64,000 nucleotides of DNA from an uncultured Desulfobacterium sp. GTDB lineage: Bacteria; Desulfobacterota; DSM-4660; Desulfatiglandales; Desulfatiglandaceae. Every line of letters starts with the position of its first letter. Within the stretch, counting starts at the first letter, position 1. The position numbers were made by a program, and so were the translations under genes. The notes beneath the pieces were generated by a model, which worked only from the letters and a program-made list of their open reading frames with translations, was not told the DNA's origin and made no database searches. This document shows positions 1,258-48,807 of the stretch, piece after piece. Location of the stretch: NCBI GenBank assembly GCA_900258555.1, contig LT984856.1:236357-300356 (forward strand), given 5' to 3'.

Positions 1258-1848
1258 TTATTCGCAGGGCGGCGTACTTGAATTCTTTGATTTCAAGCAA
1301 AACGTATCGGGGTTCAAGAAGGAACCAGAGACTATAATTTCCCCAACAACTAATATGTCGTAATCTCCCCCGTCGAATTTTCCCCCAATAGGGTTAATCT
1401 TTCCTCCTGTTATTTCGCCTCCATTCATAGTAAGATGGACCCTAAAGTCTGGCTGGAAATTAATTGTCTCAACTTCCAGGGAATCGGTCCATGTCCCATA
1501 GCCTTCGGCAATGAAATCAGAGTCAGTGCCACCAAATACATCTATTTCAAAATCCCCCGGCGTCCAACAGTCTTCAAAAGTGTCAAGCACATACAACTTG
1601 CCCAATAGACAAGACGACTGGAAGATAACCGCACTTATATGTAGATATGCTTTGACCTTTGACGAAAATTTTTTAGGGGTTGTTTCAGAATTATCATATG
1701 AAAATTCATACCCGGTCAATTTAATGTTTAATAAAAACCATTGATCTTCCAGCGCGGTTAAATCCCGGGCGATAGAAAATTTTGGCAGTAATAAGAAACT
1801 TGTGACAATATATATAAAAACGATTGACATAAAATTTTTTGATCTCAT
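1258..1848 (-). CDS. exported protein of unknown function
   Basis: I do not recognise this protein. It is about 196 residues from the chosen start, with an N-terminal hydrophobic segment (MRSKNFMSIVFIYIVTSF) ending near SIARD that looks like a Sec signal peptide. The mature part is rich in beta-forming residues, contains four Cys residues that could make disulfides, and has several Gly/Asp-rich turns (GGEITGGKINPIGGKFDGGD). The frame stays open upstream to 1866, but an AGGGGGG ribosome-binding site sits at a good distance from the ATG at 1848, so that start is preferred. It is 27 bases downstream of another small exported protein on the same strand and may share its transcript. Confidence 0.65.
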   Translation of the reverse strand: MRSKNFMSIVFIYIVTSFLLLPKFSIARDLTALEDQWFLLNIKLTGYEFSYDNSETTPKKFSSKVKAYLHISAVIFQSSCLLGKLYVLDTFEDCWTPGDFEIDVFGGTDSDFIAEGYGTWTDSLEVETINFQPDFRVHLTMNGGEITGGKINPIGGKFDGGDYDILVVGEIIVSGSFLNPDTFCLKSKNSSTPPCE

Positions 1849-1875
1849 GGTATCCCCCCTTCTCACGCACAGTAT

Positions 1876-2301
1876 TTATTTAGAACCTTTATATCGAATG
1901 AATACCTCTCTTGCCTTTTGTGCTGCATGTCTTGCTTCTTTATGGGTTTTTCCATAAAAACCTTCTTCTCCTAACTGTATTTTGTTCCAAACTGTATCAT
2001 ATATAATCTGAGACGTCGCAATCGCCTTTACAATATCGGCTTGTTTCCCAGGAACTTTTCTCCAATCTTGGACATAACGGTTATATTTCAACATTTCTAT
2101 ATTCATTCTTTTGAATGCCATCTCAACTTCCAACCTTATAGAGGAAGGATCAGAAAAAACAACTTCTATTTCGTCTAATGCATCAAGGACCTTTTCGGTT
2201 ATCGAAATGAAATCATTAAAAGGAATGGGCTCTGCTGTGTATGCAGTCGTATATACTAATAAAAAAGCCGTCGCAATAAATAGTAAAAAGAATCTTCTCA
2301 T
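1876..2301 (-). CDS. small exported helical protein of unknown function
   Basis: A 141-residue protein with a clear signal peptide (MRRFFLLFIATAFLLVYTTAYTA, cleavage likely before EPIPF). The mature part is predicted mostly helical and charged, ending in a basic tail (ARHAAQKAREVFIRYKGSK). No motif that I can tie to a family. A GGAAGG motif directly abuts the start codon and an AAGGGAA lies further upstream. It is probably the first gene of a two-gene unit with the exported protein downstream. The 750 bases upstream are unusually AT-rich and hold no gene. Confidence 0.65.
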   Translation of the reverse strand: MRRFFLLFIATAFLLVYTTAYTAEPIPFNDFISITEKVLDALDEIEVVFSDPSSIRLEVEMAFKRMNIEMLKYNRYVQDWRKVPGKQADIVKAIATSQIIYDTVWNKIQLGEEGFYGKTHKEARHAAQKAREVFIRYKGSK

Positions 2302-3052
2302 CCTTCCGTTCCCTTTTCTTCTCTTTTGCTCAATATATTCATAAACAGCCCTAACTAATTTCCTGCAATAAAGAAAAGACCTCTCTATTTATTATTTATA
2401 ATATTGAGACGGTCCGAGGCAGCCCCTTTATCAGCCTCTTCTCCTTGATATTGAGCCTTAATTAATTCATATTTTTTTATATATTATATTCAATATTATT
2501 TCGATATATACTATTTTATTTAAATATCAATTAAGTTGAATTTGCGTTTTATTTAACTATGCACTAGTATCGCTCAAATCCTTTTCAGTGGGCTACGCTA
2601 TTTTACAATATAAATACCACCATAACTATTTTATATATAATTTTATTCTAATTGGAAAAATAACACTTAAAAACCTTTGAAATAGATAGCGGATTAATTG
2701 AATTTTAAAAGAGCGTTACCCCAATGTAACTATTCAGGTGGATAGCCTAAATGCTGAAGACTGAAGGTAAAAAATTGAATCATGCCCGATAATTAAGAAA
2801 ATATAAATCGCGAAGGCTTTGTGTAGCCACTCAGGCCTAATAAAATTGAGACCTCGCATTAACTGTCTCCTTCTGCCTTCGAACTTCAGCTAAAATACCT
2901 GAGTACTTACAAATCAATTATGAAAAATCCTATATACTCTTTACAGATTTTTTGCAATAGGCATTATTTCCATATCCCTATTTCGCCAACTTTCCCTATC
3001 ATTCTGTTTCCCATTTTCCTTTATATAATAATATCACTGGCGAAGAAGCCCC
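2302..3052. other. gene-free AT-rich stretch
   Basis: About 750 bases with no convincing coding frame. The middle (about 2450-2700) is very AT-rich with runs such as TATATATTATATTC. It separates the small exported genes from the polyferredoxin cluster. I see no clear hairpin terminator, repeat array or RNA gene in it. Confidence 0.5.
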
Positions 3053-4606
3053 CTAAAATGGAAAGCCTTTCTCTGGTTCAACCGGCTTCAGTTTTTCTTC
3101 AACCGGCGGTTTTGCTGTCTTGTGGAGATAGTTTCCCTCAACGTAAATGGCCTTGTGCGGCAGGGCGGGACATACATGTTCGCATGCTCCGCATCCTACG
3201 CATATTTCCTCATTTACCTGCGGGAGCCTCAGGTTGTTTTCAATTACCTCATGGACCGCCTTTGTCGGGCAGTGTTCCGAACATGCACAACATTCTGTCT
3301 TCTGGGTTACCACTACGCAGTTGTCTTTTATGAATTTCGCAATACCAATCTGAGTGAGTTTTTTTTCTTCCAAACTAATCGGAAGGATTGCCCCGCTCGG
3401 ACAAATCTCGCTGCATTTTTTACATTCATAATTACAAAATCCTTTTCTGTTGTCCATGACAGGAAGTAGAATTGCCCCTGATTCAAGCAACGACGGCTGT
3501 ATAACCTGACCCGGACATACGCTTACACACAGATAACAGGCGGTGCAGGAACCTCTAAAACGGGCAATGCCTTTTGAACCAGGTGGTGTTACAGCGACAT
3601 TCTTTCTGACGGGAATAAGGTTCATTTTGTAAACAACAATCCTGTTTTGGGCTAAGGCATTACGGACTGGCCTTATTGCTAGAAGAAGGATCATGGCAAG
3701 GAAGGCCCTGCGACCTTCCTTGCCTCTTCCCGCAGAAATCGTTCTGTTGCGGTCAATTGCAGAATGACTATATAGGATTGCGCCGGCAGGGCACGAATCA
3801 TAACAATTAAAGCAGCAGACACACCTGCTGAAGTCAATGGAATTGTTTACGGAGTCAATACAGTTCGACTTGCAGACCTTTTCGCAAAGGCCGCAGCCGG
3901 TGCAGAGTTCTTTATCTACACGAAATTTGAATGCAGACAGATATGATACCAATCCGAACAACGACCCGACCGGACAGATGGTATTGCAATAGAGCCTGCC
4001 TCTAATCAATGAAAGCACTGTTGCGACTGCAAAAAATATCGCCGTATACAACAGGATAGAAATCTGTATGGGCTTATATGTAAAGGGCGCAACCGAGTAG
4101 ATATCAAAATGCTCCAGCGTTGTAGCGGTGAGATTATTGAGGCTGATAAAGACAGGTCTTGCAAGGCATGTGATAATTCTTCCGAAATTACTGAAGGGGT
4201 CCAGTATGGTGATTAAGGTCATACCTGTCGTAACAAGGGCTATGACAGTGATTAACAGGACTGAATATCTCAGAAAATTATGTGCCTTTGTATAACGAAA
4301 TTTTACCTTACGGATCTTTCGTCTTACAAATATAATAATATCGAAAAAGCCGCCCAGAGGGCAGAGAAATGAGCAGTATACCCTTCCGAATATCAACAGC
4401 AGTATAAGTACTATGATAAATCCGATGAAGGCTCCACTGTATGTATTGATGAATTTTATCAGGGACGGGATAAACTGAAAAAAAACAGCGCTGTTTATAA
4501 ATGAGGATGGTACTGATCCCTTTATGTCAAGAAAGCTTATGGAGATGGCGGCGATAAAACAGATGCATACCGCCGCCCTTATCTTTTTAGCCGGGCCGTG
4601 TCTCAT
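3053..4606 (-). CDS. membrane-bound polyferredoxin (NapH/MauN-like, multiple 4Fe-4S)
   Basis: A 517-residue iron-sulfur membrane protein. The N-terminal 230 residues hold about five hydrophobic segments with an internal CSFLCPLGG and CNTICPVGS, as in the NapH/NosR/RnfB-like Fer4_5 domain. Then comes a ferredoxin pair (CTGCGLCEKVC, CVCCFNCYDSCP), another hydrophobic segment, and a C-terminal array of about four more 4Fe-4S motifs (CTACYLCVSVCP, CKKCSEICP, CCACSEHCP, CVGCGACEHVCP). It probably moves electrons between a membrane donor and a soluble partner. It lies 10 bases after a DUF362 gene, a pairing often seen in anaerobes. The electron partners are unknown. Confidence 0.85.
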   Translation of the reverse strand: MRHGPAKKIRAAVCICFIAAISISFLDIKGSVPSSFINSAVFFQFIPSLIKFINTYSGAFIGFIIVLILLLIFGRVYCSFLCPLGGFFDIIIFVRRKIRKVKFRYTKAHNFLRYSVLLITVIALVTTGMTLITILDPFSNFGRIITCLARPVFISLNNLTATTLEHFDIYSVAPFTYKPIQISILLYTAIFFAVATVLSLIRGRLYCNTICPVGSLFGLVSYLSAFKFRVDKELCTGCGLCEKVCKSNCIDSVNNSIDFSRCVCCFNCYDSCPAGAILYSHSAIDRNRTISAGRGKEGRRAFLAMILLLAIRPVRNALAQNRIVVYKMNLIPVRKNVAVTPPGSKGIARFRGSCTACYLCVSVCPGQVIQPSLLESGAILLPVMDNRKGFCNYECKKCSEICPSGAILPISLEEKKLTQIGIAKFIKDNCVVVTQKTECCACSEHCPTKAVHEVIENNLRLPQVNEEICVGCGACEHVCPALPHKAIYVEGNYLHKTAKPPVEEKLKPVEPEKGFPF

Positions 4607-4616
4607 CTGCCATCAG

Positions 4617-5537
4617 TTACAGGTTTATCTTATTGATGGCGAGCGTTGAAAGATCCATTGTGCCCACCTGTAACCTTTGGGCGCTTTTGATATAGCCGAC
4701 TTCATTGGGATCAAGCCCGAACATCCTTGTCGCGGCTGTGTCAGCCGCGACAGGGTCTGTTGCGATTATCTGTGATTTCATGACTTCAACATCAGCAACG
4801 GAAACACCCCTGGGGCCGTTTTTCTTCATTACATAATAGGCGTCTATCACTGTCAGATCCGGCCTCTTAAATGTGGCAAAGTCTGCAATGCACTGGTGCA
4901 GGTCATTTCTGTGCCAATATCCCCTGTCCCAGACAATGCCCATATGGTTTTTCATCCCTACGGTAACCTTGGCGCTCCCATGACTCTTTAGTATCGGGAC
5001 ATTGATAAAAACATCGCTTTCAAGGACCTTTTCGTGGACCTTGGCGCTCTTGAGCCTTTCACCACGCTTGATCTCGATATCACCATAGTATCCTTCCTTA
5101 TGGGCCGGGATAATCTTTCCTCCTGCCTCCTTAACCGCCTGTTCAATGCCGCTGTTCTCGTAACACTTTGCCCATTGGTCGCAGGGATGGTCAAATACAT
5201 AAACCTCCTTTGCCCCTGCATCGAGACAATGTTTGATAATCTGCCTCACCAGCTTCGGGTTGGTGTTTCCGCCCCTTTCCGGGGGGACGTCCCAACCGAT
5301 GTTGGGTTTTACCACTACGGTCTGGTTTGGCTTGACAAACCTTTTTATCCCCCCAAAGGCCTCCATGGCCTTGTCAAACATTGCATCAGGCTCTCCACCT
5401 TTAATAGCGACCATATCACAGGCCTTGTCTGCCCCTGTAACAGCTTCTACGGCCCTTGAAATCCTGGGAAGTGAAGTCAGAGACCCTGCCGCCAATCCCC
5501 AAAGTACCCCCTTTATGATAAAATCCCTTCTCTTCAT
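4617..5537 (-). CDS. DUF362 domain protein with Tat-like signal
   Basis: The start at 5537 gives a protein of about 306 residues beginning MKRRDFIIKGVLWGLAAG, a twin-arginine-type signal (RRDFIIKG), consistent with export of a folded cofactor protein. The frame is open to 5579, but that start would overlap the upstream gene; AAGGGG lies about 12 bases before the chosen ATG. The body matches DUF362 features: KPNIGWDVPPERG, VFDHPCDQW, and ILKSHGSAKVTVGMKNHMG. DUF362 proteins are often fused to or placed beside 4Fe-4S proteins, as here. The reaction is not known. Confidence 0.85.
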   Translation of the reverse strand: MKRRDFIIKGVLWGLAAGSLTSLPRISRAVEAVTGADKACDMVAIKGGEPDAMFDKAMEAFGGIKRFVKPNQTVVVKPNIGWDVPPERGGNTNPKLVRQIIKHCLDAGAKEVYVFDHPCDQWAKCYENSGIEQAVKEAGGKIIPAHKEGYYGDIEIKRGERLKSAKVHEKVLESDVFINVPILKSHGSAKVTVGMKNHMGIVWDRGYWHRNDLHQCIADFATFKRPDLTVIDAYYVMKKNGPRGVSVADVEVMKSQIIATDPVAADTAATRMFGLDPNEVGYIKSAQRLQVGTMDLSTLAINKINL

Positions 5538-5557
5538 ATTTTTATACATCCCCTTGT

Positions 5558-6784
5558 TTATATTGTCTGTCTTGTCCAACGCCTGACCAGATATGGCTTG
5601 GCCATTTCAAATGTCAGGCAGTCCTCCTCAATCGCCTCTTCCGCCTGTTTGACTGACATCCTCTTTATCTTCTTTATCACGGAAAGTGTCCTGCCAAAGT
5701 ACAGGGGAATGAGGGAATCTATCATCAGATTTCGGTCAAATTCCTTATCCCTGTAAGCAACGGCCATATCGTATAACACCCTCGCCCAAAGATCAGCAGG
5801 GAATGTATATTCCTTCTCCCTCATGTCTTTTATCTCAAACAATTTATTGCATACATCCTCTGTCAGGACTGCCCTCCAGATATCGGATTGAAGCGCAAAG
5901 CCGTCATGAAATTTATCACTCAGTTTTTTGGTGTCCACCACTATCTCCGGAGGCATTTCCGTCTCTCCCAGACCAAAGCCGTATATTGAAGTTGGCCTGC
6001 TATACTTGATCTTGTTCCAAAATGATTCAAAATGGGTCATCATATCAAAAATCGTGCCTACCACCTCCCTGAACATCGGACCGAGGTCGGTGCCGGGGTC
6101 TTTGGCCTTATGGATCTTGGGCCTGCCCATGAAAGACTGGCATACCTGGACCTTTTGAGTAACGGCAAGGGTGGTCATCCAGATATCTATCCCGAAACTG
6201 GAAACCGCATTGGTCCATCCAGTTCCATTTAAAAAGACCCTGGCCAGATTTCCGCTAAAACCGAAATCGCCTCCTATAGGCTGCCTCACCCTCCTTCCAT
6301 AAAGTGCCCTGGTCATGGGATAGGCAATAGTGTTGGTGATTGTACCATCATATTTGTGCCTGATATACAACGGGGCCACATAATCAAAGTCACTGTAAAG
6401 TGGTTCTCCCAGGTGTTTAATCCACTCAGGGGTAATGCTTTTCAGATCCGCATCTACAACAACCACGGCCTTGGCATCAAGATCAACAACCTTCTGAAAA
6501 AGGTTCAAGAAGTTATTCCCCTTACCCCTGACGCCGGGACCAGTAGAAAGATAGATCTTGGGCGTGGATGTCGGGCTGTCAAAAAATGCCTTTCTTGTAT
6601 TATCAGGGGAGTCATTATCACAGTTGATTATCACTGAAGACTTGTCGCCGAAATATCTCTTTAAGCCCTTGTCCGCCTGAGTGGTGGGATATGCAATGGA
6701 TCCTGCCTCATTGTAAGAAGGAATACATACTACTATCTCAGCCGATTTTATATTTTCCGGGTTGTGCTCAAATACCGCTGACAT
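5558..6784 (-). CDS. glycosyltransferase family 2-like protein
   Basis: A 408-residue GT-A type glycosyltransferase. The nucleotide-sugar fold is indicated by IVVCIPSYNEAGSI near residue 20, then a DxD-type metal site in VVVVDADLKSITPEWI. A GGDFGFSGNLARVF segment and FGIDIWMTTLA follow, the same order of motifs as in glucosyl-3-phosphoglycerate and mannosylglycerate synthases. An AGAGGAGAGA ribosome-binding site precedes the ATG. It follows a second GT of related type by 13 bases, so the two probably act in one glycoside pathway, perhaps a compatible solute or a polysaccharide precursor. The sugar donor and acceptor cannot be read from the sequence. Confidence 0.8.
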   Translation of the reverse strand: MSAVFEHNPENIKSAEIVVCIPSYNEAGSIAYPTTQADKGLKRYFGDKSSVIINCDNDSPDNTRKAFFDSPTSTPKIYLSTGPGVRGKGNNFLNLFQKVVDLDAKAVVVVDADLKSITPEWIKHLGEPLYSDFDYVAPLYIRHKYDGTITNTIAYPMTRALYGRRVRQPIGGDFGFSGNLARVFLNGTGWTNAVSSFGIDIWMTTLAVTQKVQVCQSFMGRPKIHKAKDPGTDLGPMFREVVGTIFDMMTHFESFWNKIKYSRPTSIYGFGLGETEMPPEIVVDTKKLSDKFHDGFALQSDIWRAVLTEDVCNKLFEIKDMREKEYTFPADLWARVLYDMAVAYRDKEFDRNLMIDSLIPLYFGRTLSVIKKIKRMSVKQAEEAIEEDCLTFEMAKPYLVRRWTRQTI

Positions 6785-6797
6785 CGTCTCTCTCCTC

Positions 6798-8216
6798 TTA
6801 TCCCCGGCAAAAGCGTCTTTTTTCCTGCTCTACGACCTCTATCAGATCGTAAAAGATATTTGGGAGCTTATTGGACACTCTTTCCCATGATACAGTCTGG
6901 GGCATTTCAAAGATCTGGTGCTCTGAACCCCGTTCAACCTTAAGGATGGTTTCGGCCAATCCGTTATCAAGGAAGGCCTTAAATTCAGGATGGGTGTTGA
7001 CATACCTCAAAAACCTCTCCGACATCCTGTATGGATCAGTAAAGACCTCGCCTGCGTAAAGGATGGAATCGCGAAAGACATTCCGCACCATATACTCTTC
7101 GTTATCCATGTTGTATTTGAGATTGCTGAAACTGGAATCATCCGCGTATTTTCTTATCATCTCTTCTGCTATTGCCTGATATGTAATGGCCAGGTCACGA
7201 AAAAAAGTATCGGAGACCTCCAGTCCCTCTTCCACAATGATCGCTGTCATCAGAGTGGTTACAATATCAACAGCCATTCGGGTAAGCCCCCTTGACGGGT
7301 CTTTGATAAATGCATCCTGATGTTTGTGGTCAAAGGGCTCTGTGCTGAACATCACCTGGGCGGCGGAAGAGGCCTTTCTGAAGACCTCTATCAGGGTGAA
7401 GATCTCTACCCCCCAGTTGGTGGCAAAACGCATCTTCTTTAACAGATCCACCTTGAAGGCCACCTCTCCTGAAAGCTGATAATGAAAACCCATCAGGAAC
7501 TCTATCAGGTTGAGCATGTTTTCCTTCTTGCTTTCAGTAAACTTCCTCTTCAGCGAAAATAGAAGCGGGTCAAGCAGCAGGCGCTTTACCCTGCCATAGA
7601 ACTCTTTGTCGGCGATCCTCGCATAATAGGCCTTGGAGAAATCATAATCCAGCACCACAACCGGATAGAAAAGCCGGTCCAACTGTTCCCGTCTAAAGGT
7701 CCGGATATCCGCATCAATGAGTCCTATGGACTGGGCGCCCATGGCAATGGCAATCCCAAAGCCCAGGAAAATGTTCTTGCCCTTTCCAGACTCATTAATT
7801 CTAAACCCCGCCTCATTGAGTTTGGCATAAATGCTGCTGAATCCAGGCCCATCATTCCACTGGATGAGGTAATTGGTTATTCCGGATGAGGCTATGAGAT
7901 CTCTTAATATAATTGCCTCTTTTTCAGTTGCGCGGTCCAGACCGAAAATAATTGTTGATACATAGGCGACGTTTTTAAGCTGTCGCAATATGTTTTTGAG
8001 CACAGGCAGATTTGCTGGATCGGTAAACTCTGTTTCAAGGAGAGGGATGATAAGTGTGGTCTTCTTCCACTTGGAATGAAGCCTGAGCTGCGCCCTCATG
8101 TGTTTGCTGTCCTGTTGAAGGATGTGAAAGGTAGTCACCCTTCCGCTGGTTTGGCAAAAGTCAGCGATGGCCGTGCTCCTCATGAAGTGTCTGAAAAAAA
8201 GGCTGTTCAGACACAA
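6798..8216 (-). CDS. GT81-like glycosyltransferase (glucosyl-3-phosphoglycerate synthase-like)
   Basis: The core resembles GpgS: GKGKNIFLGFG followed by GLIDADI (metal site), then GRVKRLLLDPLLFSL, QLSGEVAF and NWGVEIFTLIEVF in the same order as in actinobacterial GpgS. GpgS moves glucose from a nucleotide sugar to 3-phosphoglycerate, the first step to glucosylglycerate. The start is unsure: the frame opens with TTG at 8216, ATG at 8183 has no clear ribosome-binding site, and ATG at 8099 is preceded by CAGGACAG and sits just before the fold, so it is a good alternative. The first 40 residues look unlike the family. Specificity is inferred only. Confidence 0.75.
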   Translation of the reverse strand: MCLNSLFFRHFMRSTAIADFCQTSGRVTTFHILQQDSKHMRAQLRLHSKWKKTTLIIPLLETEFTDPANLPVLKNILRQLKNVAYVSTIIFGLDRATEKEAIILRDLIASSGITNYLIQWNDGPGFSSIYAKLNEAGFRINESGKGKNIFLGFGIAIAMGAQSIGLIDADIRTFRREQLDRLFYPVVVLDYDFSKAYYARIADKEFYGRVKRLLLDPLLFSLKRKFTESKKENMLNLIEFLMGFHYQLSGEVAFKVDLLKKMRFATNWGVEIFTLIEVFRKASSAAQVMFSTEPFDHKHQDAFIKDPSRGLTRMAVDIVTTLMTAIIVEEGLEVSDTFFRDLAITYQAIAEEMIRKYADDSSFSNLKYNMDNEEYMVRNVFRDSILYAGEVFTDPYRMSERFLRYVNTHPEFKAFLDNGLAETILKVERGSEHQIFEMPQTVSWERVSNKLPNIFYDLIEVVEQEKRRFCRG

Positions 8217-8219
8217 TTG

Positions 8220-8247
8220 TTAATTTTTAATTTTTAATTTTTAATTT
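8220..8247. repeat. four perfect 7-bp tandem repeats (TTAATTT)
   Basis: Four uninterrupted copies of TTAATTT lie directly upstream of the glycosyltransferase frame. The 7-base period also appears in the fold-back elements at 17.1 and 18.1 kb and in a TTTTGAA-type run near 18745. It could be promoter-proximal slippage-prone DNA. Confidence 0.9.
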
Positions 8248-8457
8248 AAAAAGGAACTATTTTAACAAAACTTGCTTGATTTCGTTGCCGGCAAACAATA
8301 TTCGGGCTAATGACTGACAATGATATTTGAGATAACTCTAGCCGATACACCGCCATTTGTCAACTTCCCGGCCTTGTGTTCTGATTTTTCTTGAACGGTT
8401 CAAATGTAACTGGTAACTTTTTACAGGGACAAATGAATCTTTTCGGGGAGCAGTAGA

Positions 8458-9015
8458 GTGATTCCGACAAATGATGAATGTTTTCGACTTATGTCAAGGT
8501 ATGAGATGCTCGACAATATCAGGGCACATTCGCTGGTGGTTGCAAAGGTTGCACACCTGCTGGCTAGAAACCTGTTTAAAGTCGGGGTGGATATCTCTGT
8601 GGAAATGGTTACTGCCGGCGCCCTGATGCATGACATCGGGAAGACCGCATCCTTAAAGACAGGTCAGGATCATTCCAAATTAGGAAGACAAATTTGCATT
8701 GAAAATGACCTCCACGAAATAGCAGATATCGTTGGGGAGCATGTCAGGCTGAAAGACTATTATATCTATGGCTGTTATTCCGCAAAGGAGATCGTTTTTT
8801 ACTCCGACAAGCGTGTTACCCATGACACCATTGTCAGCCTGGAAGATCGCCTGACTTACATCATTGGACGATATGGAAAAAATCGGGAAAATCTGGAAAA
8901 TGCAATAAGAGTGAATTTTGAACTTTGCAAGAGGGTCGAAAAAAAGCTGCTCGGCAAATTGGATTTCGCCTCGGAAGAGCTGGCCATTTTGGCAACTGGC
9001 GAGGAAATCGCATAA
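8458..9015 (+). CDS. HDIG-type HD domain phosphohydrolase
   Basis: A 185-residue protein with the HD metal-site pattern: His24 in RAHSLVVAKVAHLLA, then the HD pair H58-D59 in GALMHDIGK, then HSKLG and a later GEHV. HD proteins of this size hydrolyse phosphate esters or nucleotides; the substrate here is unknown. It starts with GTG at 8458, supported by GGGGAG eight bases upstream. It stands alone on the plus strand between two minus-strand clusters and has no obvious partner. Similar small HDIG proteins are common in deltaproteobacteria. Confidence 0.85.
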   Translation: MIPTNDECFRLMSRYEMLDNIRAHSLVVAKVAHLLARNLFKVGVDISVEMVTAGALMHDIGKTASLKTGQDHSKLGRQICIENDLHEIADIVGEHVRLKDYYIYGCYSAKEIVFYSDKRVTHDTIVSLEDRLTYIIGRYGKNRENLENAIRVNFELCKRVEKKLLGKLDFASEELAILATGEEIA

Positions 9016-9196
9016 CCGGATTGCGGGTTACGAGTCAATATCATTAACTTAAGGATATCGAACAAGGAATTCCGAATTAAAATGTAACAACTTAAAATAA
9101 AAAAGAAATTTCCTTGCTTATATATTCTACATTCATTATTCAATATCCTGCGGTTCAAGATGCTTCGCTCACGGCGGCAAATCCGGCTGCCATAGC

Positions 9197-10066
9197 CTAT
9201 TTCATAAAATCCAGTATCCCGCCTGCGTCCAACTGATTTTCTTTTATCCCCAAAGTTTCTGTGTCCACCCCCAGACACAGGCCAAGCAGCTGCGTATAAA
9301 GGATGGATGGCAACGGCACACCATTATTTCTTTTTTCCACTATCATCTTTTGGACACTGTCGAACTGCAACTGACAATACACACACGAGACACAAAGGAA
9401 TTGGGCACCTGATTTTCTGGCCTCACTTACCTTCATGGCTGTTATGTCCATGGCCAGATTATCATTGACGCCGAATACAGGGGCGCCACAGCATTTGACC
9501 TTGGCATCCCAATCGGTGCTTTGAGCGCCTAGGGCCTCAACAAGCTGGTCGAACTTGGAAGGCTTTTCCGGGTTATCAAATTCAGCGATCTCCCTGGGCC
9601 GTAAGATATGACACCCATAATGAACTGCAATATTGGGCTTATCAAGCTTCTTAACCGCCTTTTGTCTTATCTGCTCTACTCCTATGTCACTATATAGAAA
9701 ATCAAGAAAATGCCTGATCTTGATCCCGCCATTATACCTGAGGCCTTCCCTGTTTAATATTCCACTGATCTCTTCCCTGATTGACGCATCCTGTTTCATT
9801 AAGTGATCGGCATTCTTGAGATTTCCATAACAGCAATTGCAAACGGTCAGGATGTTGAGATTATGCCTTTCCGCAATACATAAATTCCTTACGGAGGCGA
9901 GCAGATAGGCCTTATAATCGTAGTTTTTCAGCGGTTGTCCGCAGCAATTGAATTCCTTTATGTCAACCAGCCCCACGCCGAGTCTGGCCAGCACAGCATC
10001 TGTGGATGTCTCGTATTGCTTTAGCAAAACAGATGTGGGGCAACATCGAAATATGGCAAAGTTCAT
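9197..10066 (-). CDS. hdrB: HdrB-like CCG-domain protein (heterodisulfide reductase subunit B homologue)
   Basis: A 289-residue protein with two CCG-type cysteine clusters. The first is formed by RCCPTS, FNCCGQP and CNCCYG; the second by HYGCH, VKCCGAP and CVSCVYC. In HdrB these clusters hold the noncubane 4Fe-4S centres that reduce disulfides. The gene follows the membrane Fe-S cytochrome gene by 18 bases, the usual HdrC-HdrB order, and an AAGGATT ribosome-binding site overlaps the gap. In sulfate reducers and relatives such pairs link the quinone pool to cytoplasmic thiol or other carriers. The natural substrate is unknown. Confidence 0.85.
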   Translation of the reverse strand: MNFAIFRCCPTSVLLKQYETSTDAVLARLGVGLVDIKEFNCCGQPLKNYDYKAYLLASVRNLCIAERHNLNILTVCNCCYGNLKNADHLMKQDASIREEISGILNREGLRYNGGIKIRHFLDFLYSDIGVEQIRQKAVKKLDKPNIAVHYGCHILRPREIAEFDNPEKPSKFDQLVEALGAQSTDWDAKVKCCGAPVFGVNDNLAMDITAMKVSEARKSGAQFLCVSCVYCQLQFDSVQKMIVEKRNNGVPLPSILYTQLLGLCLGVDTETLGIKENQLDAGGILDFMK

Positions 10067-10084
10067 AATCCTTAGTCTCCAATT

Positions 10085-11842
10085 CTAACTGCTTCTCTTT
10101 TCAGTTGTCTCTTCAATCGCCAGATTCTTTAAGACATAGAATATATCAGTAATGTGCACACCCTGAGGGCAGTGTTGCTGGCATTCATAGCAGCCAAGGC
10201 AGTCCCATAACATACCTGTGCGATATACCAGCTCCGGGGTGCCTAAGATAACCGCCTGCATCATCTGATGGGGCACCATACCTAATTTTTTAGGATCATT
10301 GCCGTTGTTGTTCGCCACCGGGCAAACGGTTGAGCAGGTAGTGCAACTGAAACAGTATGAAAAGGTGTCGGCATCTGAGGTCATATTCAGTTTTTTCTTT
10401 GCCCTCTCACCCCACTTGGTGGGCGATACGATACCGTCCTTGGCATCAATTGATCTGCACGCCTCTTCAATGGCGCCCCTTGCTGTCTTAAGAGGCTGGA
10501 GATATTGGGTCTCCGGCAGCCGGCCGCTGTTGATACCCCTGTAATAGGAAAACGGCGTCAAGGTTAGAAATTCAGGATAACCTCTATTTAAAAGAGTCTC
10601 CCTGACATTGAACCATAATTCCTGGAGATTGATGCCGACCGGGCAGACATCTGTGCAGCGGTGGCAATTGGTGCACATATAGACCCCTTCCTGCAGGTGC
10701 CTTATTTCCAGTTCGCCAAGATCCTTGCCGGAGGCAAGGGCCTTTATGGCCGGTATTTTTTCCGATGGCAGTATCCTGACATTATTGAACAGCTCAAAGG
10801 TGACCCCGACTGAACAGCGCGTTGAGCATGTCCCGCAATGTGTACAAGCGTCAAGTTCCATTATTTGTCTTGTTGCAATATTGGCCGGATCTGATTTTTC
10901 ACGCTCCATAACAGCATTGGCAATAAGGCTTATGGGGCTGGCTATTATATGGAACATCTTGCTGAAGGGCAGATATGCCAAACCCGCAAAACAGGCTATT
11001 ATGTGGATATACCAAAGGATAAGAGGGGCATTTATCTTATCAAGACCAAGGGCGACAGGGCTCAGGATCTTTGCAGAGGCATAACCGGTAAAGGCCCATT
11101 GGGGCTTTGAGTGACAGTCGGCGCAGGCGTTTTCGTGTATTTCCTTGCCCTGGTCCAAGACGTCGGTGTCAAATGGCGCCTTTACGTTGGGCGAGACAAC
11201 GCCGAACTCAGCCACCCAAAAACTCTCCAGGGCCCGGATCTCTTCTTCGTCTTCAAGGTCGCCGTATTCTTCCACCATGTCGGAAAATACCCTGTGGGAG
11301 AGAATTTTAGTCCCTTCCAAAAGTACCCCGGATATCATGATCACCGCAACAATGATGATGGCGTATTTATCCATCGCATCAGTCTTTAGCCTCGGGATCT
11401 TCATTATAAAACGACGATACAGCGCGATGGCCACCCCGGCTATTACCAATAGCCCAAAGAGGTCTCTAAGAAACATAAACGGATTGACCGTGGGATAGTA
11501 ATTGCTGAAAAAGGGTTCAGAGAAATAATTATCCAGGGCGTGCATCAGAAGAAGGAGCATAAAGCCGTAAAAGATCATCATGTGCATCAGCCAGCGGAGT
11601 AAATCCTCTTTCAAGATCCTTCTCTCACACATGACATCAAGGACAAATACCTTGACTGCGGTAAAAATCTTAACACTGAAAATAACACCCAACGCACCCT
11701 TCAGCACAGCAAAAAACCTGGTGCCGGGCGTAATATCGTCTGCCAAAAGTCCGACTTTCCATGTTAACCATGTATAGAATCTATAGAGCAGACCAAGGAT
11801 AAAAATTGCTAAGGAAGAGTACAAAAGAACATTGAATAGCAT
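10085..11842 (-). CDS. HdrC-like membrane Fe-S protein fused to NarI-type cytochrome b, with CxxCH
   Basis: A 585-residue fusion. Residues 1-290 hold five or six membrane spans typical of NarI/DsrM-type cytochrome b. A loop within this part carries NACADCHSKP, a c-type haem motif that is not in plain NarI. The C-terminal half has four ferredoxin motifs in two pairs: CTHCGTCSTRC and CTNCHRCTDVCP, then CFSCTTCSTVCP and CLGCYECQQHCP. This is the HdrC layout, doubled. It precedes the HdrB-like gene and is expected to pass electrons between quinol and HdrB. AAGGA precedes the ATG. The number of Fe-S centres and the haem attachment are inferred from motifs. Confidence 0.85.
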   Translation of the reverse strand: MLFNVLLYSSLAIFILGLLYRFYTWLTWKVGLLADDITPGTRFFAVLKGALGVIFSVKIFTAVKVFVLDVMCERRILKEDLLRWLMHMMIFYGFMLLLLMHALDNYFSEPFFSNYYPTVNPFMFLRDLFGLLVIAGVAIALYRRFIMKIPRLKTDAMDKYAIIIVAVIMISGVLLEGTKILSHRVFSDMVEEYGDLEDEEEIRALESFWVAEFGVVSPNVKAPFDTDVLDQGKEIHENACADCHSKPQWAFTGYASAKILSPVALGLDKINAPLILWYIHIIACFAGLAYLPFSKMFHIIASPISLIANAVMEREKSDPANIATRQIMELDACTHCGTCSTRCSVGVTFELFNNVRILPSEKIPAIKALASGKDLGELEIRHLQEGVYMCTNCHRCTDVCPVGINLQELWFNVRETLLNRGYPEFLTLTPFSYYRGINSGRLPETQYLQPLKTARGAIEEACRSIDAKDGIVSPTKWGERAKKKLNMTSDADTFSYCFSCTTCSTVCPVANNNGNDPKKLGMVPHQMMQAVILGTPELVYRTGMLWDCLGCYECQQHCPQGVHITDIFYVLKNLAIEETTEKRSS

Positions 11843-11950
11843 ATGTTAAGTCCTTCAGATTTAGTCATAATTGTAGTTATCAAAATCTATGGCAACAGCT
11901 TGGGGTTTCAAAAAAAACGGACCCAAACTTTATCTCTGAATCACCTTTGC

Positions 11951-45884: not shown

Positions 45885-46388
45885 TCATTGACTGTATTGT
45901 TTTTTGGGATCGCTCGGTAATGAGGCTGAAAAATGCTCTTTCGCCTTTTCCATATTCCCAAGCCGCTTATACGCAATGGCCAGGTTATGGTGCGCGTCCG
46001 TGTCCCGCGGGTTTTGCTCCAATGCCTGTGAAAACGATGCGACAGCATCCTGATATTCACCCTGAGACAGGTGTGCAAGGCCCAGCTCACTATGGATCTC
46101 AGGGTCATCGGGCCGAAGCAGCCCGGCCTTTGACAGGTTTGATACGGCCTGTTTCACCTTACCACGGCGAAGGTCAATCATCCCCAGATATTTATAGGGG
46201 TCGGCCCCGCGGGGCGACATTTCAAGAATACGCGAAAAACATCCGGCAGCCTCATCCAGCCTTCCTGCCTCGGCCAGAAGCAATCCCAGGGCGGTGCAGC
46301 CCCCTTCATGCCAGGGATCTACTCGGACGGTGTTTTCAAACTCCCGGATCGCCTCTTCGTGTCTGCCTGCCGCGGTCAGGGCAAGCAA
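45885..46388 (-). pseudogene. tetratricopeptide-repeat protein, N-terminally truncated
   Basis: About 167 residues of TPR repeats (for example HEEAIREFENTVRVDPWHEG, then RLDEAAGCFSRILEMSPRGADP, QGEYQDAVASFSQALEQNPRDT, then RLGNMEKAKEHF). The first repeat lacks its beginning: an in-frame stop lies three codons before the only possible start, TTG at 46388. The break is within a few bases of the 5' end of the cassette-like gene, so the 5' part was probably lost when that DNA came in. An intact short protein from the TTG (AAGG upstream) cannot be excluded. Confidence 0.7.
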
Positions 46389-46409
46389 ATGGCCTTAAAG
46401 GAGATGCGA

Positions 46410-46892
46410 ATGAAATATCTATTATCTTTTTGTATTCTTCTTCTGAGCCCAACCATCGTTATGGCGAGAAAACCAGACGATCCGGTTGACCGTATCATGC
46501 CAACAGTCATTATGACTCTTATAGTTGGTGGCATCGCTTGGCTTATATCGGTAGTGAAAAAAAGGAATTCATCCACAACAAAAAAAGAGCACACGGCAGA
46601 AGAACATCGCTCAACGCAGACCGATAACCCGCCACAGAAAACTACTGCAAACAAAATTGATGGCGTTGGTTGGAAATTGGGTATTGCAGGTGCAGTCTTA
46701 GGCGGTCTATATGGCTTTATTAGTACAAATGATTTGGGCCAAGGTATTATTTATGCGATAGGAGGCTTTTCTCTATTGGGGGCGCCCTTTTTTGTGTTTG
46801 CTGACTCCGATTCCATGTTCGAGAAAATACTCGCTATTCTTTTTTTCGGTGGTGTACTGATTGCGATTATTTATTCGGTGATAAAGAAATGA
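46410..46892 (+). CDS. cassette-borne membrane protein of unknown function
   Basis: A 160-residue protein from the ATG at 46410, with AAAGGAG seven bases upstream. It has a signal-like N-terminus (YLLSFCILLLSPTIVMA), a membrane span near residues 25-45 (IMPTVIMTLIVGGIAWLISV), a Lys/Thr/Glu-rich loop, and two or three further spans (LGIAGAVLGGLYGFI, IYAIGGFSLLGAPFFVF, ILAILFFGGVLIAIIYSV). I do not recognise the family. It is immediately followed by an attC-like site and starts at the break of the TPR gene, so it reads as an integron gene cassette. No promoter of its own is visible, as expected for cassettes. Confidence 0.75.
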   Translation: MKYLLSFCILLLSPTIVMARKPDDPVDRIMPTVIMTLIVGGIAWLISVVKKRNSSTTKKEHTAEEHRSTQTDNPPQKTTANKIDGVGWKLGIAGAVLGGLYGFISTNDLGQGIIYAIGGFSLLGAPFFVFADSDSMFEKILAILFFGGVLIAIIYSVIKK

Positions 46893-46893
46893 C

Positions 46894-46989
46894 ACTTAAC
46901 AACGGCATCGAGAGGGACGCGGGATTAGCCGTCATTCTTTTTCAATATTGGCCTTGTTGTTCCCGCGCCCCTCATTCCCGGCGTTAAAC
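46894..46989 (+). other. attC-like integron recombination site
   Basis: Begins two bases after the cassette gene stop. It opens with ACTTAAC (fits RYYYAAC) and closes with GTTAAAC (fits GTTRRRY), 96 bases apart in total, within the usual attC length. The two halves are imperfect inverted repeats: GAGAGGGACGCGGGA on the left pairs with the reverse complement of TCCCGCGCCCCTC on the right, leaving two unpaired A bases on one side, like the extrahelical bases that orient attC. No integrase gene is in the window. Confidence 0.7.
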
Positions 46990-47378
46990 ATTACCATTTC
47001 AATCCTTCATCTCCTCAAAAATTACGTATAACTGGTATGAACGGCGAATATAGAAAGAAAAATAAACTTATGACTTGCAGGACAAACATTTATTTTGTGC
47101 GGTCAGAAAATCCGAAACTTGCCAATTCTAAAAAAGACTTTATATAATTAAGGGGTTGGCCAGATAAAGGCAATGGCAAGTTAGCATTGGTTTGAGAAGG
47201 CACGGATCCTTTGATGAAATCGGCGATGCAGCAGGGAGAGCTCAGCGCTGGACGGTTTTTCCTTTGGTGATGTGGAAAAGGCTTAAGCAGCTATAGCACT
47301 CTCGTTTGTCAAATAAAAAGACCGCAAGATCCAATCCCAATATGTGTAGAGTGTCGTCATATACAATTATGGCGGCGT
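46990..47378. other. gene-free stretch beyond the cassette
   Basis: About 390 bases with no gene, no second attC-like site and no recognisable continuation of the TPR frame. Short AT-rich parts (TTATATAATTAAGG) may hold a promoter but none is convincing. Confidence 0.5.
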
Positions 47379-47960
47379 TCACTTTGTGGGTTCAAAAAGA
47401 CGTTGAACTCGCCTGCGGATGACAGCAGGATATTTTTCAGACATCTTCAACAAAGATCCGAAGTTCACGTCAGCCAGTTCCATCTCATCCTCGGCCGGAA
47501 TCTTTCCACGATAATAAAGGGTATCCAGGATCGCCTTTTCCGGCGAGGCCATATACACACCGTTCTCGACGGAAAATCCTTCAAAGAGTTTTGGAGCAAT
47601 ACTTGAAAATTCGATGGTGATCCCCTGGTAGATAACACTGCGAGCCTTGCCCACTGATGAACTCAAGGTGATGGTTGAACAGACATAGGGGGCCTGCAGC
47701 AGGATACCGTGGTGGTTCAAGGCCCATTCGCAGGAAACATATGCGGGCGGTCTCAGAAAACATGCGGCCTGTTCCACTCCCGGAAAACCGTAAAGGAAGG
47801 AATTGACGTAATTTCCGCGGTTGATCCGGTGGATCAGTCCCTTTTTAACGGCCCTGTTCAAGAAGATTTCGGAATGTGGGGCCACCTTTTCCGCATCATG
47901 CTTGCGAAAGAGAATGGGAAGGATTTTTAGTCTCTTAAGTGTTGATTCATTTTCTTTCAT
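47379..47960 (-). CDS. AbiEi-like antitoxin
   Basis: A 193-residue protein with an N-terminal winged-helix-like region (FLNRAVKKGLIHRINRGNYVNSF) and an AbiEi-type body (PPAYVSCEWALNHHGILLQAP, ITIEFSSIAPKLFEGF, YMASPEKAILDTLYYRG). AbiEi proteins repress their operon and counter AbiEii toxins. It overlaps the nucleotidyltransferase gene by 14 bases but lies downstream of it, opposite to the usual antitoxin-first order. Confidence 0.85.
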   Translation of the reverse strand: MKENESTLKRLKILPILFRKHDAEKVAPHSEIFLNRAVKKGLIHRINRGNYVNSFLYGFPGVEQAACFLRPPAYVSCEWALNHHGILLQAPYVCSTITLSSSVGKARSVIYQGITIEFSSIAPKLFEGFSVENGVYMASPEKAILDTLYYRGKIPAEDEMELADVNFGSLLKMSEKYPAVIRRRVQRLFEPTK

Positions 47961-48807
47961 TTAAGTACTTTTTCAGACCCTGGTCCAGCAGGTCCGCGGT
48001 CACTTTCTTTAATGCATTTCTGAATTCCTCGAAATTATTTTCCTGATACACCAGGAAAATATCTTGAGGGATAAAGCGAGGCAGATCACTCTTCAAGGCG
48101 CTGATGATCTCCTTGTCGTTTTTTTTATGCTGGAAAAATGCCGGGTCCCTTGCAGACGAAAAATCAGCCTGATACATTTCCAACTTGGCCCTTGTACTTG
48201 TCCATGAAGGTTTTACCCGGAGTTTTTGGGTAAGCCACCAGATATCATAGATATCCCGCCCCTTAAGATAGGCTCTTTCATAAACGGCCCTTATCTTGTC
48301 GGATAGAATTTCTTCAGGCGTTTCAGCCAGAACCACGCTGCTTGAGTAAGTCATGATCAGTTTTCCACTGGTAAGCATGCCTGCCACTTGAGGCAGGTCC
48401 CTCAATACTGTTTTCATAATGCCAGGCTTGGAACCATGTTTCAGCGATTCGAACTCCAGCTTTACAGCGACCCTTTCCCGCTTATTCTCTGGACGATATA
48501 TGAAAAAAACCTTAACCGCTTCTTCTCGACTCTTCTTATGGCTTTGTTCCGATTTTCCGGGGCCGAACTGTGCAACACATGAATTGTGAATTTTCTTGGA
48601 AACGCCTTGGATAATCGTTTGAATATCAGAAGCTGAAAGTTCGGTTACAAAATCCAGATCTTCCGAAAATCGTGTTCCGCCATAGATCCATCTAATGGCG
48701 GTTCCGCCATGAAAATAGATGCGTTCCGACCCGGATAAGCTATAAAGGTTGTCCAGTAAAAGGATTTGAAACGACTCAGAATGTCTGATGTATGCCTCTT
48801 GATGCAC
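47947..48807 (-). CDS. AbiEii-like nucleotidyltransferase toxin
   Basis: A 286-residue protein of the AbiEii/MenT group. The nucleotidyltransferase site is FHGGTAIRWIYGGTRFSEDLDF, with the GG motif and the DxD-like DLD. Further family features are VKLEFESLKHG and the GRDIYDIWWLTQ segment. Such toxins modify tRNA or use GTP, and give phage abortive infection in known systems. It starts with GTG at 48807, well spaced from GGAGGAA. A promoter with an inverted repeat lies upstream at 48838-48866. Confidence 0.85.
   Translation of the reverse strand: MHQEAYIRHSESFQILLLDNLYSLSGSERIYFHGGTAIRWIYGGTRFSEDLDFVTELSASDIQTIIQGVSKKIHNSCVAQFGPGKSEQSHKKSREEAVKVFFIYRPENKRERVAVKLEFESLKHGSKPGIMKTVLRDLPQVAGMLTSGKLIMTYSSSVVLAETPEEILSDKIRAVYERAYLKGRDIYDIWWLTQKLRVKPSWTSTRAKLEMYQADFSSARDPAFFQHKKNDKEIISALKSDLPRFIPQDIFLVYQENNFEEFRNALKKVTADLLDQGLKKYLNERK

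Follow-up and report, generated by a model that had tools for sequence, protein, structure and literature searches.

Cassettes that lie alone in a chromosome form a recognised class, the SALINs (PMC12690207), and in 41 Shewanella genomes, for example, 115 orphan cassettes have been counted (PMC9229058). The authors of IntegronFinder have likewise pointed out that clusters with a single attC can be true (PMC9024848). Two further reports concern the insertion itself: entry into the genome via attG sites (Loot et al. 2024, doi 10.1038/s41564-023-01548-y, as cited in PMC12901181), and the aadB cassette in RSF1010 as a case of secondary-site insertion (Recchia and Hall 1995, as cited in PMC10127599). 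The locus described here lies in a 64-kb stretch of DNA, which was analysed as a whole and is called the window in the following. It resembles the SALINs in having one attC, one ORF and no intI nearby, and differs from them in nothing essential, namely in its lineage and in a C at its left junction. As far as the citing papers describe them, attG and secondary-site insertions likewise consist of one cassette in a non-att genomic target without an integron around it, whereas in our case the target reads CTT where GNT is expected, and the neighbouring gene is not merely cut in two. Like the attC-bearing cassette clusters found away from an integrase, the window cassette has no nearby integrase, but it carries one attC, the usual minimum for such clusters being two (PMC9024848). 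With the sedentary chromosomal integrons it shares a genome that possesses an integrase above the TIGR02249 cut-off; this integrase, however, is on another contig, and a gap of 9,065 bases is present where its array would lie. Lone cassettes are already known from other bacteria, and the present locus is a further case, from a lineage for which we found no description of a solitary cassette in the literature; its junctions show two untidy features.

The region 46395–46983 is an integron-type cassette that stands by itself in its bacterial chromosome, remote from any integron. It occupies 589 bp of the plus strand, the first T of TTAAAG being its left end and the G of the R' box its right end, and its borders are backed on the right by a covariance match to attC and on the left by the end of an open TPR frame. 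A leader of 15 bases (46395–46409), in which GGAG at 46400–46403 resembles a ribosome-binding sequence, precedes a plus-strand ORF of 160 amino acids (46410–46892) for a predicted small membrane protein. The stop codon is separated by one base from the attC site of 96 bp (46894–46989, plus strand), and the ORF stands directly before attC in the same orientation, with little non-coding DNA, as in gene cassettes. Both end boxes named in the original prediction are present in the sequence: the R'' box ACTTAAC (consensus RYYYAAC) at 46894–46900 and the R' box GTTAAAC (GTTRRRY) at 46983–46989, in which crossover is expected after G46983 according to established integron knowledge and PMC10127599. 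The G+C content of the ORF is 0.41 versus 0.47 for the window; this lower value, the leader and the one-base distance from stop codon to attC are consistent with a cassette. No second copy of the cassette sequence was found across the source genome. On the left lies a minus-strand TPR-repeat gene (45888–46394), whose 5' side is truncated exactly at the cassette edge, and on the right a non-coding flank without TPR coding (46984–47378) extends from attC to an AbiE-like gene pair. This AbiEi/AbiEii-like pair beside the cassette (minus strand, 47379–48807 of the window) was recognised by PADLOC matches.

The analysis used a covariance model of attC, which was our own and not that of IntegronFinder. 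It was built from 36 sites of integrase-linked loci in other bacteria, none of them from the window, and its structure has 14 pairs comprising the R box and the L box. For this purpose seven integrases of the order to which the source genome belongs were aligned, the alignment served to retrieve 80 integrase loci of other genomes, and when these were scanned for R boxes whose arms are complementary, many of them proved to contain arrays; the training sites were drawn from this wider set because the first attC scans around the order-level integrases had given few sites. The model matched exactly 46894–46989 on the plus strand (27.8 bits, E 1.7e-5, model positions 1–68 of 68), in agreement with the 96-base element of the original prediction, and gave no further match in the 64-kb window up to an E of 10. 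In the whole genome (5.43 Mb, 28 contigs) there were two clear matches, one on contig C1 with 32.2 bits and the window site with 27.8 bits (E 1.4e-3 in this search), the next match having 16.3 bits; this search scores only part of the first candidates, and weaker sites may be missed by it. The model was also applied to two control genomes. In the first (3 Mb, with integrons and large arrays) the matches above 20 bits were all confined to two arrays, none being scattered, and in the second (5.2 Mb) a single match exceeded 20 bits and stood isolated. The arm-pairing scan detected this one element in the window, with a score of 15.2, and among 600 dinucleotide-preserving shuffles of the window a score of 15 was reached by one site only.

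We also examined the predicted fold of the element. The bottom strand gives a hairpin of −17.9 kcal/mol versus −12.4 ± 2.6 for shuffled sequences (z −2.2), and the top strand folds less stably (−15.2, z −1.7). In the bottom strand the R box pairs five bases and is followed by an unpaired spacer, a 12-bp L-box helix preceded by an AT:AT step, and a long variable end; in the best canonical pairing, three bases (G, T and T of the bottom strand) stay single on one arm. The unpaired bases are thus three, and not two as in the original prediction. In the fold of minimum energy slightly more of the spacer is paired and fewer bases are in register, and the R and L boxes are common to both folds. One of the training sites (L094:112–183) shows the same bulge pattern by eye. 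In general, attC sites are marked by a central spacer that stays unpaired, a terminal part that varies, and two to three extrahelical bases (PMC11641012), and 46894–46989 shows all of these in addition to the R and L boxes; on the basis of its sequence and predicted fold, we assign it as an attC site.

The isolation of this cassette was examined in the window and then in the genome. No integrase over the family cut-off, no attI and no second attC, even a partial one, was found in the window, and the other clear attC of the genome is located on another contig; the locus therefore has the single attC, without a second attC or intI nearby, of a SALIN and lacks the intI and attI that adjoin the cassette in a complete integron. 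That we deal with a single cassette outside an integron, as had been proposed, is supported by the covariance model, by the cassette anatomy and by the fact that the gene belongs to no conserved operon of relatives. An intI gene elsewhere in the genome, for which a search had been recommended, does exist: one integron integrase exceeds the TIGR02249 cut-off, with 360 bits at 10850–11785 of contig C4. The gap mentioned above is a run of N directly upstream of this gene, where attI and an array are expected, and in the sequenced part of 40 kb around it no attC was found beside the integrase. By eye, the C4 integrase keeps the residues R, K, HxxR and Y; it has a P before the catalytic R (of 73 integrase-linked frames, 69 have L or M there), and its N-terminus is shorter than that of its nearest kin. 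Judging from this P and the short N-terminus, the enzyme may be inactive. In the fetched locus L023 (G000:C4), the integrase region occupies 10628–11863 and the gap 1488–10552, and the far side of the gap carries HigBA-like genes and a repeated transposase-like fragment.

The same genome contains a second cassette-like unit, at 9084–9540 of locus L163 (G000:C1, about 2562083–2562540). Its attC (L163 9452–9537, 32.2 bits) has the R boxes TCCTAAC and GTTATAC and is directly preceded by an ORF ending in ...FNKMQWP, a gene for which no relative was found in the order. Because a gap of 1,203 bases lies about 370 bases to the left of the site, this cassette is possibly not truly single. HipA-like and helix-turn-helix genes are located to the right of the unit.

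The left junction requires a closer description. As had been noticed originally, the gene starts behind a break in a TPR gene: the cassette start TTAAAG directly follows the last open codon of the opposite-strand TPR-repeat gene, whose frame is open up to 46394, has a stop at 46395–46397 and lacks a plausible start codon of its own. The edge, CTTAAAGG, has C in place of G, just as the original prediction described it, and within 46376–46412 the only GNT triplet is GAT at 46403. When C^TTAAAG is set against G^TTRRRY, the TTRRR part fits, but the left G and the last Y do not. The left G of a cassette edge comes from the target and not from the cassette. The target rebuilt from both flanks is GGCC^TTAAAC, with CTT and not GNT at the crossover. 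For secondary sites of integrases, GNT has been reported, with GTTRRRY as the extended and best form (PMC10127599). The C at the left junction could be a later mutation, could reflect the preference of another integrase, or could belong to an edge produced by another process. When the two flanks are rejoined, a stop codon comes directly before the TPR frame and is followed by 395 bases without TPR coding; this excludes simple insertion into a TPR gene that was still whole, unless a deletion followed, and the locus must have undergone a deletion, an older break or the disappearance of an array that once existed. The right flank, when searched against the genome, gave only short weak matches. 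A search for a related genome without the cassette, another check suggested originally, was unsuccessful: no empty site was found in a relative, and the neighbourhood is not syntenic in relatives. We also searched for the ancestral locus via the neighbouring methyltransferase, and its orthologues, with up to 66% identity, had no TPR or transporter gene beside them. The order of events cannot be read from the locus because no relative preserves it.

The explanation that we consider probable, and the simplest one, is that an integron integrase placed a circular cassette in a non-att part of the chromosome, where it was then stranded, one of its flanks having been altered. As to enzyme, target and order of events, we infer the following course. 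An integron integrase would have excised a circular cassette at its attC, would have bound the folded bottom strand of this attC and would have recombined it with a short target sequence within or beside the TPR gene, and the cassette would have been left stranded as a single unit at a non-att chromosomal place. The alteration of one flank would most likely be a deletion in which the TPR gene lost its 5' part, possibly through an integrase reaction between attC and another genomic site, or else the flank may have been lost by an older break beside the landing place. A deletion made by an integrase between attC and an outside site would explain both the sharp edge and the lost flank; integrases can delete genomic regions (PMC10127599), and we infer that the same could apply to this locus. 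The secondary-site insertion already considered in the original prediction agrees with the solitary attC and with the sharpness of the left edge, but the target lacks the G of GNT and the TPR gene is not restored when the flanks are rejoined.

The other origin suggested originally, the last remnant of an array, is possible but in our judgement unlikely. A deletion that took the other cassettes, attI and intI of a longer array or integron together with the TPR 5' part would account for the missing part of this gene and would need no insertion at a non-GNT site, and both solitary and clustered attC sites are present in the order; the window, however, is without traces of a neighbouring partial attC, attI or intI, and a left border exactly at the TTRRR edge would be lucky for a random deletion, so that an integrase-mediated one would be needed. 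We find it improbable, to a further degree, that the cassette was inserted next to a TPR pseudogene already truncated by an older, unrelated break. The in-frame stop directly upstream of the TPR frame at the rebuilt junction and the presence of an AbiE-like pair, often mobile, in the right neighbourhood agree with such a history, which must nevertheless treat it as a coincidence that the end of the open TPR frame and the start of the cassette fall exactly together. That there is no cassette at all, and that an ordinary ORF is simply followed by an intrinsic terminator, a hairpin formed by chance or a repeated extragenic element, appears very improbable. A single attC is indeed the case most prone to false positives, and the default of IntegronFinder is therefore two (PMC9024848); against this stand the E values of 1.7e-5 for the window and 1.4e-3 for the genome and a full-length match including both R boxes. 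In addition, no terminator-like site was called there, the lack of a second genome copy argues against a REP-like repeat, and the Rfam scan returned no family.

The product of the cassette gene is, judging from its sequence, a small membrane protein, and its function cannot be inferred further. Its N-terminus contains a hydrophobic stretch, and there are about four further hydrophobic helices with a charged linker, the total being about four to five. Family libraries gave only matches below cut-off, which accords with the original description of an unknown membrane protein. A structure model from the single sequence (mean pLDDT 60, five helices) was too weak for a fold search. No relatives of the gene were found in 85 genomes of the order, none of the protein in 84,980 species by a peptide pattern, and none when 395 genomes of the phylum, as well as plasmids, phages and viral contigs, were searched with DNA and protein queries. 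Two weak matches (E about 1e-4 per genome, 30–33% identity over part of the length, with stops) were set aside, no attC being present beside them. Cassette cargo is usually without relatives, and this small membrane protein is presumably ordinary cassette cargo. No promoter-like site was called before the ORF on its own strand, and for this reason the gene is probably little expressed and may be silent.

The search was also extended to the order. Among its 85 genomes, 38 have an integrase over the cut-off and 56 have attC matches (E up to 0.05), many of which are alone in the fetched stretches of 6.5 kb. For example, the one-contig genome G041 has several isolated attC places, and no integrase was found in it at an E of 1e-70. 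Scattered solitary attC sites are registered as L219–L238 (G041, G058, G008, G048 and others). A methyltransferase-like cassette is common to two genomes of different families, with 90% identity over 907 bases (L227 3353–3412 and L224 3184–3243); the identity stops exactly at the GTT of R' and the flanks are unrelated, which is direct evidence that such units are discrete modules. A more general view would be that the cassettes of the order are largely scattered chromosomal singles and not arrays, that they are placed by integrases accepting non-GNT targets, that cassette-mediated deletions reshape the flanking genes, and that the window shows one such event; taken as a whole, we regard this view as rather unlikely.

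The window cassette is a clear case from nature of settlement outside an integron, and single cassettes are widespread in the order, including a genome in which no integrase was found. Such naturally occurring loci lend themselves to the study of how frequently single genes are seeded into chromosomes by integrases, and of whether other integrases obey the target rules seen with IntI1.
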